Assembly: GCF_021568905.1 (NCBI RefSeq)
Contig: NZ_JAKGSB010000001.1
Span: 1-64,000, forward strand
DNA: 64,000 nucleotides
From: Zavarzinia marina
GTDB lineage: Bacteria; Pseudomonadota; Alphaproteobacteria; Zavarziniales; Zavarziniaceae
Direction: 5' to 3'
Of the stretch, positions 53,696-58,170 are shown piece after piece (within the stretch, counting starts at the first letter, position 1; each line of letters opens with the position of its first letter). The position numbers were made by a program, and so were the translations under genes. Below the pieces are notes generated by a model. It was not told the origin of the DNA. It searched no databases and was given only the letters and a program-made list of their open reading frames with translations.

Positions 53696-53717
53696 GCCGC
53701 CCGCGTCAGCGGGCGGC
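53696..53717. terminator. Bidirectional terminator hairpin between acyl-CoA dehydrogenase and lipoprotein genes
   Basis: A perfect 9-bp stem GCCGCCCGC/GCGGGCGGC closes a GTCA loop. The loop contains the stop codon of the convergent lipoprotein gene. It lies 14 bp after the acyl-CoA dehydrogenase stop. Confidence 0.65.
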
Positions 53718-54899
53718 ACCGAAGGCGCCGGTCCACAATTCGGTGAAGCCCGTTTCCGTGTCGTGCTCCTGCAGGCCCCAGGTGCCGCCGGCTTCGGTCG
53801 CGTTGGGGCCGAAGAAATTGCCGGCCATGGCACCGCTGCCGTTCAGGGCTTCGCCGCTGAAGCCGACGGTCATGCCGCTGTCGGTCGAGCCCGCAAAACT
53901 GGCATTGGCGGCGTCGATCGCGATGCCGTCGAAATCGATGGTCTCGCCCGTCAGGGAGGCGTCGACCGTGGCTGAATCGAAGAATTTCAATCCGGTGACC
54001 TGGGCGCTCATGGCGCCCGCGCCGAAATCCGCCCGCAGGCGAATGTCGCCGGCGAAGGTGAAGAACGCCCCCGCGCCCTCGACGACGACACCGCCCACGG
54101 TCGTCCCATTGTAGACGGCGGTCGCGGGCAGGGCGGCGATCGTGGTCAGATCCGGACTGACGGAGCCGATGGCGCCGCCGCTCATGCCGAGGAAGAATTC
54201 GGTCTCGTCCGGGTGCATGCTGGACAGGATCCAATAGGCGAAGCTCATGTGGCTGAGATCGACCGTGCCCGCGCCGTCGAGGGCCAGGCCGTTGATTTCC
54301 GTTCCGTCGGGCGGATCATAGAGCACGTCCTGAACACCGCTCATCCAGCCGCTGTCGGACACACCGATCTTCAGGCCGGGCATCAGTTCGTCGAGGGGCG
54401 CCCAGGCCGAGATGGAGGCGCCGACCACGAGATCGGGGCCGCCCGGCAGGGATTCCCTCATCTCGACCACGAAACCCTCGGCCGAACCGGGAATGCGGCT
54501 GAGGCTGGCTTCGGAGAAGGGGAATGTCACCGGCTCTATTTCGGGTATCGGGTCGAGCGTCCCGGGAAGTTCGGTGCTGCCGCCGGGGATATAGAAGGGC
54601 CCGGGCAATGTGCCGACGTCCGTTCCGGCGGCCACGATGATACCGGTCACGACGGCCGGCACCGTGCCGCCGTTGAAGCCGGCCGCCGTTTGGGCGGGGC
54701 TGACGGTCGTGGTACCGGAAGCGGGCAGAACGGCGCTGAAAGAGGTGATGGTGGGGGCCGGCGCCGGTGCCGGCGCCGGCGCGGATCCGCCGCCGCCGCC
54801 ACCCGTGCAGGCGGCGAGGCCGAGGACGGCGCCCAGGAAAAAAAGCATCCGCGGCGCTTCGCCGATCCGGGTGCCGTGCAAACGAAGATTGGATTCCAC
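53706..54899 (-). CDS. TbpB-like surface lipoprotein (probable Slam substrate), copy 2
   Basis: A 397-residue predicted lipoprotein. A basic N-terminus is followed by MLFFLGAVLGLAAC, with the lipobox LAAC, then a Gly tract and Ala-Pro repeats as a surface tether. The C-terminal third forms a TbpB-like beta-barrel domain with the signature MAGNFFGPNATEAGGTWGL. TbpB-type lipoproteins are flipped to the cell surface by Slam. The GTG at 54899 places GAGGA eight to nine bases upstream and adds the basic n-region; ATG 54848 would lack both. The ligand is unknown. It is separated from the Slam gene by two genes on the opposite strand. Confidence 0.82.
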   Translation of the reverse strand: MESNLRLHGTRIGEAPRMLFFLGAVLGLAACTGGGGGGSAPAPAPAPAPTITSFSAVLPASGTTTVSPAQTAAGFNGGTVPAVVTGIIVAAGTDVGTLPGPFYIPGGSTELPGTLDPIPEIEPVTFPFSEASLSRIPGSAEGFVVEMRESLPGGPDLVVGASISAWAPLDELMPGLKIGVSDSGWMSGVQDVLYDPPDGTEINGLALDGAGTVDLSHMSFAYWILSSMHPDETEFFLGMSGGAIGSVSPDLTTIAALPATAVYNGTTVGGVVVEGAGAFFTFAGDIRLRADFGAGAMSAQVTGLKFFDSATVDASLTGETIDFDGIAIDAANASFAGSTDSGMTVGFSGEALNGSGAMAGNFFGPNATEAGGTWGLQEHDTETGFTELWTGAFGAAR

Positions 54900-55025
54900 G
54901 GACACATTTCCTCGAAGGTGGTTTTTCGTGATCAATAACACACGAGGATTGTGTCCCACAGCCCCATAATGCAGAGAGCAGGACGCCGTTGCCGGCACGG
55001 CGGGGGGCTGCCAGAATGCGGCGCC

Positions 55026-55367
55026 ATGACCGTGACCATCTATCACAACCCGAAATGCGGCACGTCCCGCACCACGCTTCAGCGCATCCGCGCGGCGGGT
55101 ATCGAGCCCGTCGTCGTCGATTATCTGAAGACCCCTCCGACCCGCGCCGAACTGGCCAGGCTCGCGGAGGTGCCGGGTCTCGGCGCCAAGGCCCTGCTGC
55201 GCGCCAAGGAGGCGCTGGCCAAGGAGATGGGTCTGGCGACGGCGGCCGACGGCGCCATTCTCGATGCCATCGCCGAGCATCCGATCCTGCTCAATCGCCC
55301 GATCGTGGTGACGCCGAAGGGGGGGCGCGCCACCCGCCCGCCGGAGACGGTGGACGAGATCCTCTGA
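55026..55367 (+). CDS. ArsC/Spx family thioredoxin-fold protein
   Basis: A 113-residue protein of the glutaredoxin-dependent ArsC family. It has the active-site Cys in HNPKCGTSR, VDYLKTPPTRAEL, and the Arg-containing HPILLNRPIVVTPKGGRATRP that binds arsenate in ArsC. Real arsenate reductase activity is plausible, but no other arsenic genes are here, and many such proteins have other redox roles (YfgD-like). Its stop overlaps the next start (TGATG). Confidence 0.85.
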   Translation: MTVTIYHNPKCGTSRTTLQRIRAAGIEPVVVDYLKTPPTRAELARLAEVPGLGAKALLRAKEALAKEMGLATAADGAILDAIAEHPILLNRPIVVTPKGGRATRPPETVDEIL

Positions 55368-55681
55368 TGCGTTTCGTCGATCCCCGGGGCTTCACCGCCG
55401 CCCGTGCCTGGGGCGCCCTCGACATCGCGCGCTTCGATGCCGCGACCGTGCGCCTGCATTGGACCGATGCGCCCTATCGCTGGCATGTGAACGACGGCGA
55501 GGAAGTCTTCGTCGTGCTCGACGGCGAGGTCGACATGCATTGGAAGGACGAGACGGGGACGGAACGGGTCACCCGCATGGTCGCGGGCGACATCGCCCAT
55601 GCCGGCGTCGGCGCCGAACATGTCGCCCATCCGCGCGGCCCGGCCCGCATCCTGGTGGTGGAGACGCCGGGCTCGGTCTGA
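55367..55681 (+). CDS. Small cupin-domain protein
   Basis: A 104-residue single cupin barrel. Cupin motif 1 is visible as WHVNDGEEVFVVLDGEVDMHW and motif 2 as AGDIAHAGVGAEHVAHPRG, giving possible metal ligands (His, Glu, His). The function is unknown; such proteins may be small oxygenases, isomerases or ligand sensors. It is translationally coupled to the ArsC-like gene (TGATG) and converges on the Slam gene with a 6-bp gap. Confidence 0.82.
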   Translation: MRFVDPRGFTAARAWGALDIARFDAATVRLHWTDAPYRWHVNDGEEVFVVLDGEVDMHWKDETGTERVTRMVAGDIAHAGVGAEHVAHPRGPARILVVETPGSV

Positions 55682-55687
55682 ACAGCG

Positions 55688-57004
55688 TCAGAACTCCTTG
55701 GTGAAGCCGATCTGGAAGATGTCCCGGTCGTATTCGTAGATCGAGATGTTCGACTGGTTCGAGACATGGGTGTAGCGGAACTGCGGCGTGATCTTCCAGA
55801 AATTGATCTTGCGGTTCAGCAGGGTGGCTGAGGCCTGCCAGACCGTATCGTCGCGGTCGACGCCGAACAGCGGCTGCACGCCGTCATAGGCCGCTTCCGA
55901 ATAGCGGTAGGAGGCGCCGGCGGAAAAGCCCCAGGGCAGGTCGCCGTAGACCCCGGTGGCGACGCCGACAGATTTGCTCGACAGATGGTTCGCCTCCAGG
56001 CTCTCGCGATAGGCATTGGCCGAGCCATAGATCAGAAGGCTGGGGCGCACCGCATAGCGCAGCGTGAAACTGCTGTCGTAGGTCCGCCCCTCGCGCCCGT
56101 CGCCGGTCAGGGAGTCGAGCAGCGCGACCCGCCCCGATGCCTCCGCCCGCAGGCGCCGGGACAGCAGATATTGGCCGTCCACCCGGACGCCGGTCGACAC
56201 GGCATAGGGATCGAGCCCGTACCAGCGGTAATAGCCGTCGAAGGAGACGCCGACCTCGCCGCGCGACAGCAGAAGGCGCGGGCCGACGCTGAAGCTCGCC
56301 ACCGTGTCGTCGAAATCGCTGTCCTCATAGCTGCGCTGGTTCAGGCCGCCTTCGGCCTTGATGCGCCAGCGCTCGCCCAGATCGAAGCGATAGCCGCCGA
56401 AGACCCCGGTCAGGACGCCGACCCCGGATTTCCGGGTCGAGGAATCGTTCAGATAGAACGGCAGGCCGCCCAGATTCACCTCGCGGCTTTCGGGGCCGCC
56501 GGTGATGTTGCTGTCCGGCACGATGGCGACCGTCAGCCCCAGGCTCCAGCGTCGGCGCAGGCGGATCGCGTCGAGGAATTTCTCGATATTGGCCTTCACC
56601 GCCTCGGGCAGGTCGGCGGACAGCAGGCGCTCGAACTGGAAGCGCGCGCGGTCGTCGTGCTCCCCGGAGAGATAGAGTGCGCGGGCGAGCTCCAGGCGGA
56701 CCCGGACCAGGTCCGGATCATGGTCCAGGATGTCGTCGAAGATGACGGCCGCGGCCTCGTAGTCGCCGGCGGTGATGGCGATCAGGCCGAGACGGAACGC
56801 GGCCTCGATCCGGAGCTGTTCGTCCGTCGGTCCGCTTTCGGGCGACAGGGGGGCTGGCGGCGCCTCGGGCCCGGTCGCCGTCTCGGCCGCGCGCGCGGGC
56901 GACGCGGCGAGGGCGATGCCGAGGGCCGAAGCCGCCAGGAGACGCGCCGCGTGGCCGGCGACGGAAGGAACGGCGCCCCGCCGCGCCGTCCGCCGCGGCG
57001 GCAT
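55688..57004 (-). CDS. Surface lipoprotein assembly modifier (Slam, DUF560)
   Basis: A 438-residue outer-membrane protein. A signal peptide (RLLAASALGIALAASPARA, cleavage near 39) is followed by a periplasmic TPR domain (about 60-148, with AAFRLGLIAITAGDYEAAAVIF) and a C-terminal beta-barrel (about 150-438) ending QIGFTKEF with the terminal Phe recognised by the BAM complex. This is the Slam plan: the TPR part receives lipoproteins and the barrel moves them to the cell surface (type XI secretion). ATG 57004 overlaps the upstream TbpB-like stop (TGATG), so exporter and substrate are translationally coupled. Slam was first described in Neisseria. Confidence 0.87.
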   Translation of the reverse strand: MPPRRTARRGAVPSVAGHAARLLAASALGIALAASPARAAETATGPEAPPAPLSPESGPTDEQLRIEAAFRLGLIAITAGDYEAAAVIFDDILDHDPDLVRVRLELARALYLSGEHDDRARFQFERLLSADLPEAVKANIEKFLDAIRLRRRWSLGLTVAIVPDSNITGGPESREVNLGGLPFYLNDSSTRKSGVGVLTGVFGGYRFDLGERWRIKAEGGLNQRSYEDSDFDDTVASFSVGPRLLLSRGEVGVSFDGYYRWYGLDPYAVSTGVRVDGQYLLSRRLRAEASGRVALLDSLTGDGREGRTYDSSFTLRYAVRPSLLIYGSANAYRESLEANHLSSKSVGVATGVYGDLPWGFSAGASYRYSEAAYDGVQPLFGVDRDDTVWQASATLLNRKINFWKITPQFRYTHVSNQSNISIYEYDRDIFQIGFTKEF

Positions 57005-58170
57005 CACTGCGCGGCGCCGAAGGAGCCGCTGATCTCCACCACGGGGGGCGTGCCCGTGGTGTCGGGGATCATGTTGTCGCCGCTGACGTACCAGGTGCCG
57101 GCGGTCTCGTTCGCGGCGGGGCCGAAGAAGCCGCCCTCCAGCGCGGTCTGACCGTTCGGCGTGGTGCCCGTCGTCGTGGCCGGATCGAAAAAGGTCTTGG
57201 CCGTGCCGCCCGAGAAGGTCGCATTGCCCATGTCGATCGCGGCGCGGGAGAAGGTGACGCTGCCGAGCGGCGCGGAATTGCCGGCACTGTCGTAGACCAT
57301 GAGGTTATAGGCCCGGGCATTGACCAGGCCGGTGCCGAAATCGGCGCGGACCAGGAAATTGCCGGCGACGATGCTGATCCCGTCGATGCCGGAATTCACC
57401 GCCGCCGACCCCACGGTCTTGCCGATATAGGTCGCCGTGGCGGGCAGCGAGGCGATGGTGGTCAGGTCCGGGCTGCCCTCGGTCGAGAAGGACGAGCCGC
57501 CGGCCGCCATGAACTGGTATTTGGTCGCGTCGGCCGGATCGAAATCCTCCGCCACCCAATAGCCGAAGGCGACATAGCTGAGATCCGTGGTCGCCGTGGC
57601 GTCGAGGATCGTCACCTTGACGTCGCCGAGAGAAGTATATTCGGCCGCCGTGAAACCGGTCAGCGTCGCCGTTTCCGACAGGGAATGGCGCAGGCCCGGC
57701 AGGATGGTGTCGACCGCCGTCCAGTCCTTGAAGGTCGCCGTCAGTTCCTTGGCGGTGCCGCCGCCGGCGCGATTGCCGGTCAGGGTCACTTCGATCCCTT
57801 CCGGTTCCGCCGTCCTTGCCATCGCCGCCTCGTCGAAATCGAAGGGATAGTCGAGCCGCGCCGTCGTCGTCGTGGTGGTGGTCGGGCTGCCCAGCAGCAG
57901 GGCGAGCAGGCCGCCGAGCAGGCCGGTCGAGCCGCCGGTCGTGGTCGTGGAAGACGGTGTCACCACCGCGCCCTGGATGGTCGAGGCTTCGTATTGGCCG
58001 TCCGTGCCCTCCAGTTGGCCGGTCGTCGGCAGTACCTCGCGCAGGGAGACCAGGGGATTGGGCGTCGTGTTCGGCACGACCGGGGCGGTGCCCCCGCCAC
58101 TGCCGCCGTTGCAGGCGGCGATCGCCAGCGGCAGCGCCAGCATCACAGGAATCCGGACGACCTTGACCAT
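57004..58170 (-). CDS. TbpB-like surface lipoprotein (probable Slam substrate), copy 1
   Basis: A 388-residue predicted lipoprotein with the signal MVKVVRIPVMLALPLAIAAC (lipobox AIAAC) and a Gly/Pro-rich tether. A low-complexity stretch with Thr runs and a short hydrophobic patch (GLLGGLLALLLG) lies near residues 90-110. The C-terminus has the TbpB-like barrel signature LEGGFFGPAANETAGTWYV. GAGGGGGAG upstream fixes ATG 58170. It overlaps the Slam gene and is distantly similar to the lipoprotein at 53706-54899 (shared order SPDLTTIA-LPATA-Y-G-TVG and FFGP motif). No TbpA-type receptor is beside it. Confidence 0.82.
   Translation of the reverse strand: MVKVVRIPVMLALPLAIAACNGGSGGGTAPVVPNTTPNPLVSLREVLPTTGQLEGTDGQYEASTIQGAVVTPSSTTTTGGSTGLLGGLLALLLGSPTTTTTTTARLDYPFDFDEAAMARTAEPEGIEVTLTGNRAGGGTAKELTATFKDWTAVDTILPGLRHSLSETATLTGFTAAEYTSLGDVKVTILDATATTDLSYVAFGYWVAEDFDPADATKYQFMAAGGSSFSTEGSPDLTTIASLPATATYIGKTVGSAAVNSGIDGISIVAGNFLVRADFGTGLVNARAYNLMVYDSAGNSAPLGSVTFSRAAIDMGNATFSGGTAKTFFDPATTTGTTPNGQTALEGGFFGPAANETAGTWYVSGDNMIPDTTGTPPVVEISGSFGAAQ

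Follow-up and report, generated by a model that had tools for sequence, protein, structure and literature searches.

Slam (DUF560) proteins are outer-membrane proteins of the type 11 secretion system (T11SS). In Neisseria meningitidis, Slam1 and Slam2 (T11SS cluster 1A) are associated with the lipoproteins TbpB, LbpB, HpuA, and fHbp; in proteoliposomes, Slam alone suffices as the translocon for TbpB, and Skp is a holdase that aids Slam (PMC9090332). In an early survey, 185 of 353 Slams had lipoprotein genes next to them; 120 of these 185 clusters had TonB-dependent receptors, and nine had several lipoprotein genes (Hooda 2017, PMC5449769). DUF560 proteins have been divided into ten clusters, nine of which come mainly from water or soil organisms and lack characterized members, and one subcluster (1C) is that of Sphingomonadaceae (PMC8406197). 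Aquatic alphaproteobacterial Slam loci were already described by Grossman 2021 and 2025, the latter reporting marine Rhodobacteraceae/Roseobacteraceae T11SS loci with lipoprotein cargo and few TonB-dependent receptors (PMC12282271). Here, we have analyzed a Slam locus in a 64,000-nucleotide stretch of the alphaproteobacterium Zavarzinia marina (contig NZ_JAKGSB010000001.1, positions 1 to 64,000; hereafter the window), which contains one slam gene and two genes for TbpB-like lipoproteins, designated SlpA and SlpB. The initial annotation had treated such a locus in an alphaproteobacterium as surprising, a view not supported here, as published surveys report DUF560/T11SS to be widespread in water and soil Proteobacteria; judging from its sequence, the locus is an ordinary Slam system of an already widespread type. 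More interesting details are the fast divergence of the cargo, exchanges in gene order, and the presence in Zavarzinia aquatilis of an orphan Slam. No paper naming both Zavarzinia and lipoprotein was found among those searched.

Comparison with Described Systems

Features in common with N. meningitidis Slam1/Slam2 include a tetratricopeptide repeat (TPR) domain followed by the SlipAM barrel, the linkage of exporter and cargo genes, and, in the cargo, predicted lipidation via a signal peptidase II (SPII) signal peptide and a C-terminal 8-stranded TbpB-like barrel. Unlike the Neisseria systems, that of Zavarzinia has a shorter TPR region, single-lobe cargo, no adjacent TbpA or HpuB, and a free-living host. 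The T11SS cluster 3 of Rhodobacteraceae/Roseobacteraceae (PMC12282271) is similar in belonging to aquatic Alphaproteobacteria in which TonB-dependent receptors are rare, and some of its loci hold an 8-stranded-barrel lipoprotein of 282–375 aa, like the Zavarzinia cargo, whereas the Zavarzinia locus has two lipoprotein cargos and no adjacent DUF1194, glyoxalase, or thymidylate synthase gene. Sphingomonadaceae subcluster 1C (PMC8406197) likewise represents environmental Alphaproteobacteria with Slam beside TbpB_B_D proteins; however, Sphingomonas surface proteins can bear several barrels (PMC12282271), and the only named Sphingomonadaceae Slam in the Slam tree (L027) lies in a different clade.

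Slam and Two TbpB-like Lipoproteins

The 438-residue protein is, on sequence criteria, a Slam outer-membrane protein. It matches SlipAM (PF04575) over model positions 1–288 of 288 (E 2.2e-27, 96.8 bits, cut-off 22), contains an N-terminal TPR domain (TPR_19, E 1.2e-7, above the cut-off), and ends in Phe. Its gene is linked to TbpB_B_D cargo, overlapping slpB here and being adjacent to cargo genes in most relatives, and a PF04575 search found only this one Slam in the whole genome.

SlpA and SlpB are paralogues (35% identity) and the only two TbpB_B_D (PF01298) genes in the genome. In the Pfam scan, SlpA matched this family above the cut-off (E 8.8e-7) and SlpB slightly below it (E 8.8e-5, 23.5 bits against 26), while the genome search gave 32.8 and 26.2 bits, respectively, with the same cut-off of 26; neither protein had other notable Pfam matches. 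The lipoboxes, read from the sequence, are LGLAAC with Cys31 in SlpA, which also has a sub-threshold LPAM_1 match, and LAIAAC with Cys20 in SlpB. The barrel signatures of the two lipoproteins are FFGPNATEAGGTW and FFGPAANETAGTW.

AlphaFold2 models built from a five-sequence alignment were of moderate quality overall, with a pLDDT (predicted local distance difference test) score of 57.6 for SlpA and 62.6 for SlpB, better values for handle and barrel, and an unordered tether. In each model, a single lobe is formed by one handle and one 8-stranded barrel, and TbpB, NHBA, and fHbp entries took the top Foldseek ranks. For SlpB, VIA-align gave the highest score to the NHBA C-terminal domain (6cuj; Z 15.2, root-mean-square deviation 2.5, 143 residues aligned), followed by fHbp (4aym, 14.9), haemophilin (6om5, 13.4), the TbpB C-lobe (5kkx, 13.3), HphA (8glo, 13.2), and HpuA (12.1); the values for SlpA were 15.1 for NHBA, 14.0 for fHbp, and 13.3 for the TbpB C-lobe. 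NHBA and fHbp, both C-terminal barrel lipoproteins, are thus the closest solved folds, albeit at approximately 12–24% identity over the aligned part, and there is no ground to expect their ligands, heparin and factor H, for a free-living bacterium. Such likeness between models and structures indicates the class of SlpA and SlpB and not their ligand. Their assignment as TbpB proper, which would have two lobes and an adjacent TbpA, was rejected because each has a single lobe and no TonB-dependent receptor is near.

The gene boundaries are listed in Table 1. They agree with those proposed in the initial annotation, whose further proposals, namely a Slam coupled to SlpB in translation and a lipobox, tether, and barrel signature in both lipoproteins, were borne out by the one base common to the SlpB stop and the Slam start (TGATG), by finding all three elements in SlpA and SlpB (the tether being Gly/Pro- or Thr-rich), and by the recovery of a TbpB C-lobe-type fold in both models. 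The GTG start of SlpA has GAGGAA upstream; a longer ATG frame (53706-55280) was rejected as the slpA gene, its extra length being an antisense read through the ArsC gene. A sigma-70 promoter scan gave no useful site 5′ of SlpB or SlpA, and no terminator-like site was found.

Table 1. Genes and domains of the Slam locus of Zavarzinia marina (positions in the window).
Feature	Position	Strand	Basis or remark
SlpB, TbpB-like lipoprotein, 388 aa	57004..58170	minus	Lipobox, Gly/Thr-rich tether, single handle and C-terminal barrel
SlpB C-terminal 8-stranded barrel (TbpB_B_D, PF01298)	57010..57360	minus	Pfam and fold comparison
TGATG, overlap of SlpB stop and Slam start (translational coupling)	57002..57006	minus	Sequence
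Slam/T11SS outer-membrane protein, 438 aa	55688..57004	minus	Signal peptide, short TPR region, barrel with final Phe
Slam TPR region, residues 66-131	56612..56809	minus	TPR_19 E 1e-7; TPR_Slam PF24575 partial, below cut-off
Slam SlipAM barrel (PF04575 model positions 1-288)	55691..56548	minus	Pfam
SlpA, second TbpB-like lipoprotein, 397 aa, GTG start	53706..54899	minus	Lipobox, TbpB_B_D, paralogy with SlpB
SlpA C-terminal barrel (PF01298)	53709..54053	minus	Pfam and fold comparison
ArsC-family arsenate reductase (glutaredoxin type), between SlpA and Slam	55026..55367	plus	Backbone gene outside the export system
Cupin protein, coupled to ArsC	55367..55681	plus	Backbone gene, kept with or without Slam

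Comparative Genomics of the Locus in Zavarzinia

Named relatives of this Slam were found in Zavarzinia metagenome-assembled genomes and in Z. aquatilis. Their loci lie in a conserved backbone of short-chain dehydrogenase/reductase (SDR), thiolase, and acyl-CoA dehydrogenase genes, the ArsC-cupin pair, and glutamine-synthetase-like and aminotransferase genes. Slam and cargo are adjacent in four genomes (G002, G004, G005, and G006). Genome G002 pairs Slam with a coupled SlpB-like gene and has another cargo gene further out. In G005, Slam precedes the cargo, the reverse of the order of SlpB and Slam in the window. In G003, which matches Z. aquatilis, Slam stands beside the cupin gene and the single detected cargo gene is on a different contig. 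The same backbone is present in G001 (same genus, 100% complete), where the gap between the acyl-CoA dehydrogenase and ArsC genes is 75 bp and profile searches found neither Slam nor a cargo gene; weak cargo-profile matches in this genome span the Gly/Pro tether only and were rejected. These cargo swaps, reversals, and relocation suggest that the cargo genes are more mobile and more variable than Slam. Sequence comparisons agree in that cargo is diverging faster than its exporter: between the window and G005, SlpA is 38% identical, against 57.5% for Slam, with cupin at 83% and acyl-CoA dehydrogenase at 90%; in the comparison with G002, SlpB stands at 63%, Slam at 79%, and cupin at 87%.

In a 75-row Slam tree, the six Slams of the Zavarzinia family form one clade (support 100/100), which lies among other Alphaproteobacteria and apart from a 21-row beta/gamma-type group that has the top PF04575 scores and presumably includes the Neisseria proteins. 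This pattern is compatible with vertical descent within the family and loss in G001.

Several other observations were made in these genomes. The orphan Slam of G003 occupies the ancestral spot (L056:7604-8848) and the orphan cargo lipoprotein is at L059:7748-8779, which, from the gene arrangement, may offer a natural example of a Slam that works in trans. The Slam-adjacent cargo gene of G004 (L051:9227-10242) is in two overlapping frames, a split that stems either from misassembly or from disruption of the gene. Between the cupin and glutamine-synthetase-like genes, G001 (L125:8269-11102) and G003 (L056:10027-12856) carry a long flotillin-like gene together with two small ones, which implies that this spot is a variable site within the conserved backbone.

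Distribution in Alphaproteobacteria

Among 385 alphaproteobacterial genomes, PF04575 was detected in 43, PF01298 in 29, and both in 23 (odds ratio 64, p 6e-20), and five of the six TbpB_B_D genomes that had no PF04575 match carry a Slam by a custom-built profile, bringing the co-occurrence to 28 of 29. In a profile survey of 52 alphaproteobacterial Slams, 34 had a cargo-type barrel within 8 kb, 27 of them within 300 bp, and only three had a TonB-dependent receptor within 8 kb, compared to 10 of 26 loci in other Pseudomonadota (Fisher p 6e-4); these neighbourhood rates are lower bounds, as some contigs are short, and since the loci were picked by score and a few come from the same genome or from relatives, the p-values are no more than indicative. 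In ten alphaproteobacterial Slam loci, Pfam was also run on the large neighbouring genes and detected no TonB-dependent receptor. The linkage of Slam and cargo is found both genus-wide and class-wide.

Unusual cargo arrangements were also noticed. The 2.3 Mb alphaproteobacterial genome G348 has giant frames of 3156 aa (with a lipobox; L190:1-9469, minus strand), 1111 aa (L190:9628-12963), and 2518 aa (L191:3-7559), which contain approximately 10, 3, and 9 TbpB-type barrels, far above the 2–3 copies reported for Sphingomonas proteins; its Slam is represented by a weak, diverged match only. In two small alphaproteobacterial genomes, G088 (L078:7107-13448) and G184 (L087:2691-9055), Slam, a barrel protein of 900–940 aa, and a CHASE2-adenylate cyclase are encoded in a row. 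A protein of 710 aa in G045 (L052:5736-7868) and of 1312 aa in G172 (L062:4000-7938) separates the first cargo gene from Slam, with weak or no FG-GAP match and with barrel-like matches inside. Four genomes (G180, G256, G275, and G351) have from 6 to at least 10 scattered TbpB_B_D matches and one Slam each, which suggests that a single exporter handles many cargos encoded at unlinked sites.

Proposed Export and Possible Functions of the Cargo

Slam-mediated export of SlpA and SlpB to the cell surface is, in our analysis, highly probable. Both would be synthesized with SPII signal peptides, exported by Sec, and lipidated, and Lol and Skp would bring them unfolded to the outer membrane (two Skp-family (OmpH) genes are present in the genome). 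The Slam barrel would then pass them across this membrane, steered by the C-terminal 8-stranded barrel, and they would end anchored in the outer leaflet with handle and loops outward. The stop-start overlap may keep the synthesis of SlpB and Slam in step. SlpA is encoded on the same strand as a transcription unit of its own, and the one Slam probably exports it too. Several points weigh against this proposal: the TPR domain of Slam is short and matches TPR_Slam (PF24575) only partially (23.5 bits, cut-off 35.2); SlpA and SlpB each score 27 bits against NCBIfam NF041636 slam_lipo, below its cut-off of 80, and their assignment to this equivalog was rejected; their models are of low confidence outside barrel and handle; and SlpA is parted from Slam by the ArsC and cupin genes on the opposite strand.

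What the lipoproteins would do at the surface may be considered in the light of the receptors. As the initial annotation had remarked, no TonB-dependent receptor adjoins the locus: a genome profile search found none near Slam, SlpA, or SlpB. Since receptor-free loci are usual in Alphaproteobacteria, this absence alone says little about the ligand. Given an environmental bacterium, a ligand other than host iron proteins is plausible for the cargo. Surface binding or attachment that needs no dedicated TonB-dependent receptor partner appears to us an evenly balanced proposition, and is moderately favoured over nutrient capture passed to a distant receptor. In the latter case, SlpA and SlpB would be haemophores or TbpB-like receptors handing their ligand to a remotely encoded TonB-dependent receptor, which we consider rather unlikely. 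Haemophilin and HphA are among the fold matches of SlpB, the genome has 11 TonB-dependent receptors, and Neisseria cargo genes are not always beside their Slam; however, none of the 11 is near, the closest on the same contig being approximately 780 kb away, and only 3 of 52 alphaproteobacterial Slam loci have such a neighbour. In addition, the compared cargo proteins have no invariant His or Met and their sole invariant Cys is the lipid anchor, which disfavours a conserved His-ligated haem site while leaving Tyr ligation possible, and no Irr-type operator (TTTAGAANNNTTCTAAA, up to 3 mismatches) occurs in the window, where approximately none would be expected by chance either.

It is a good deal less probable that SlpB is the only client and that SlpA is a leftover or periplasm-facing protein not exported by this Slam. 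Although SlpA lies outside the Slam operon, at a different spot of the backbone, it is intact and outscores SlpB on the barrel family, its nearest relative in G005 is about 100 bp from the Slam of that genome, and no other Slam is available. That the 438-residue protein might be a different TPR-barrel outer-membrane protein, of PgaA or autotransporter type, is scarcely credible, since weak DUF2860 and autotransporter matches stand against a full-length PF04575 match far above every other family, as well as the class-wide linkage to TbpB_B_D cargo, and its initial annotation as Slam is therefore retained.

Beyond Zavarzinia, we would suggest, tentatively and at somewhat short of even confidence, that alphaproteobacterial Slams mostly display fast-changing, TonB-receptor-independent lipoproteins (e.g., for attachment or cell-cell contact), and that one Slam may serve changing cargo sets which are swapped, moved, or lost independently, as in Z. 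aquatilis. The small intact locus of Zavarzinia, a genus with named cultured species, combines a single Slam with two paralogous single-lobe cargos and offers a clean test case, both for possible lipoprotein export by environmental Slams and for the role that such cargo may have where there is neither a host iron protein nor a partner receptor.

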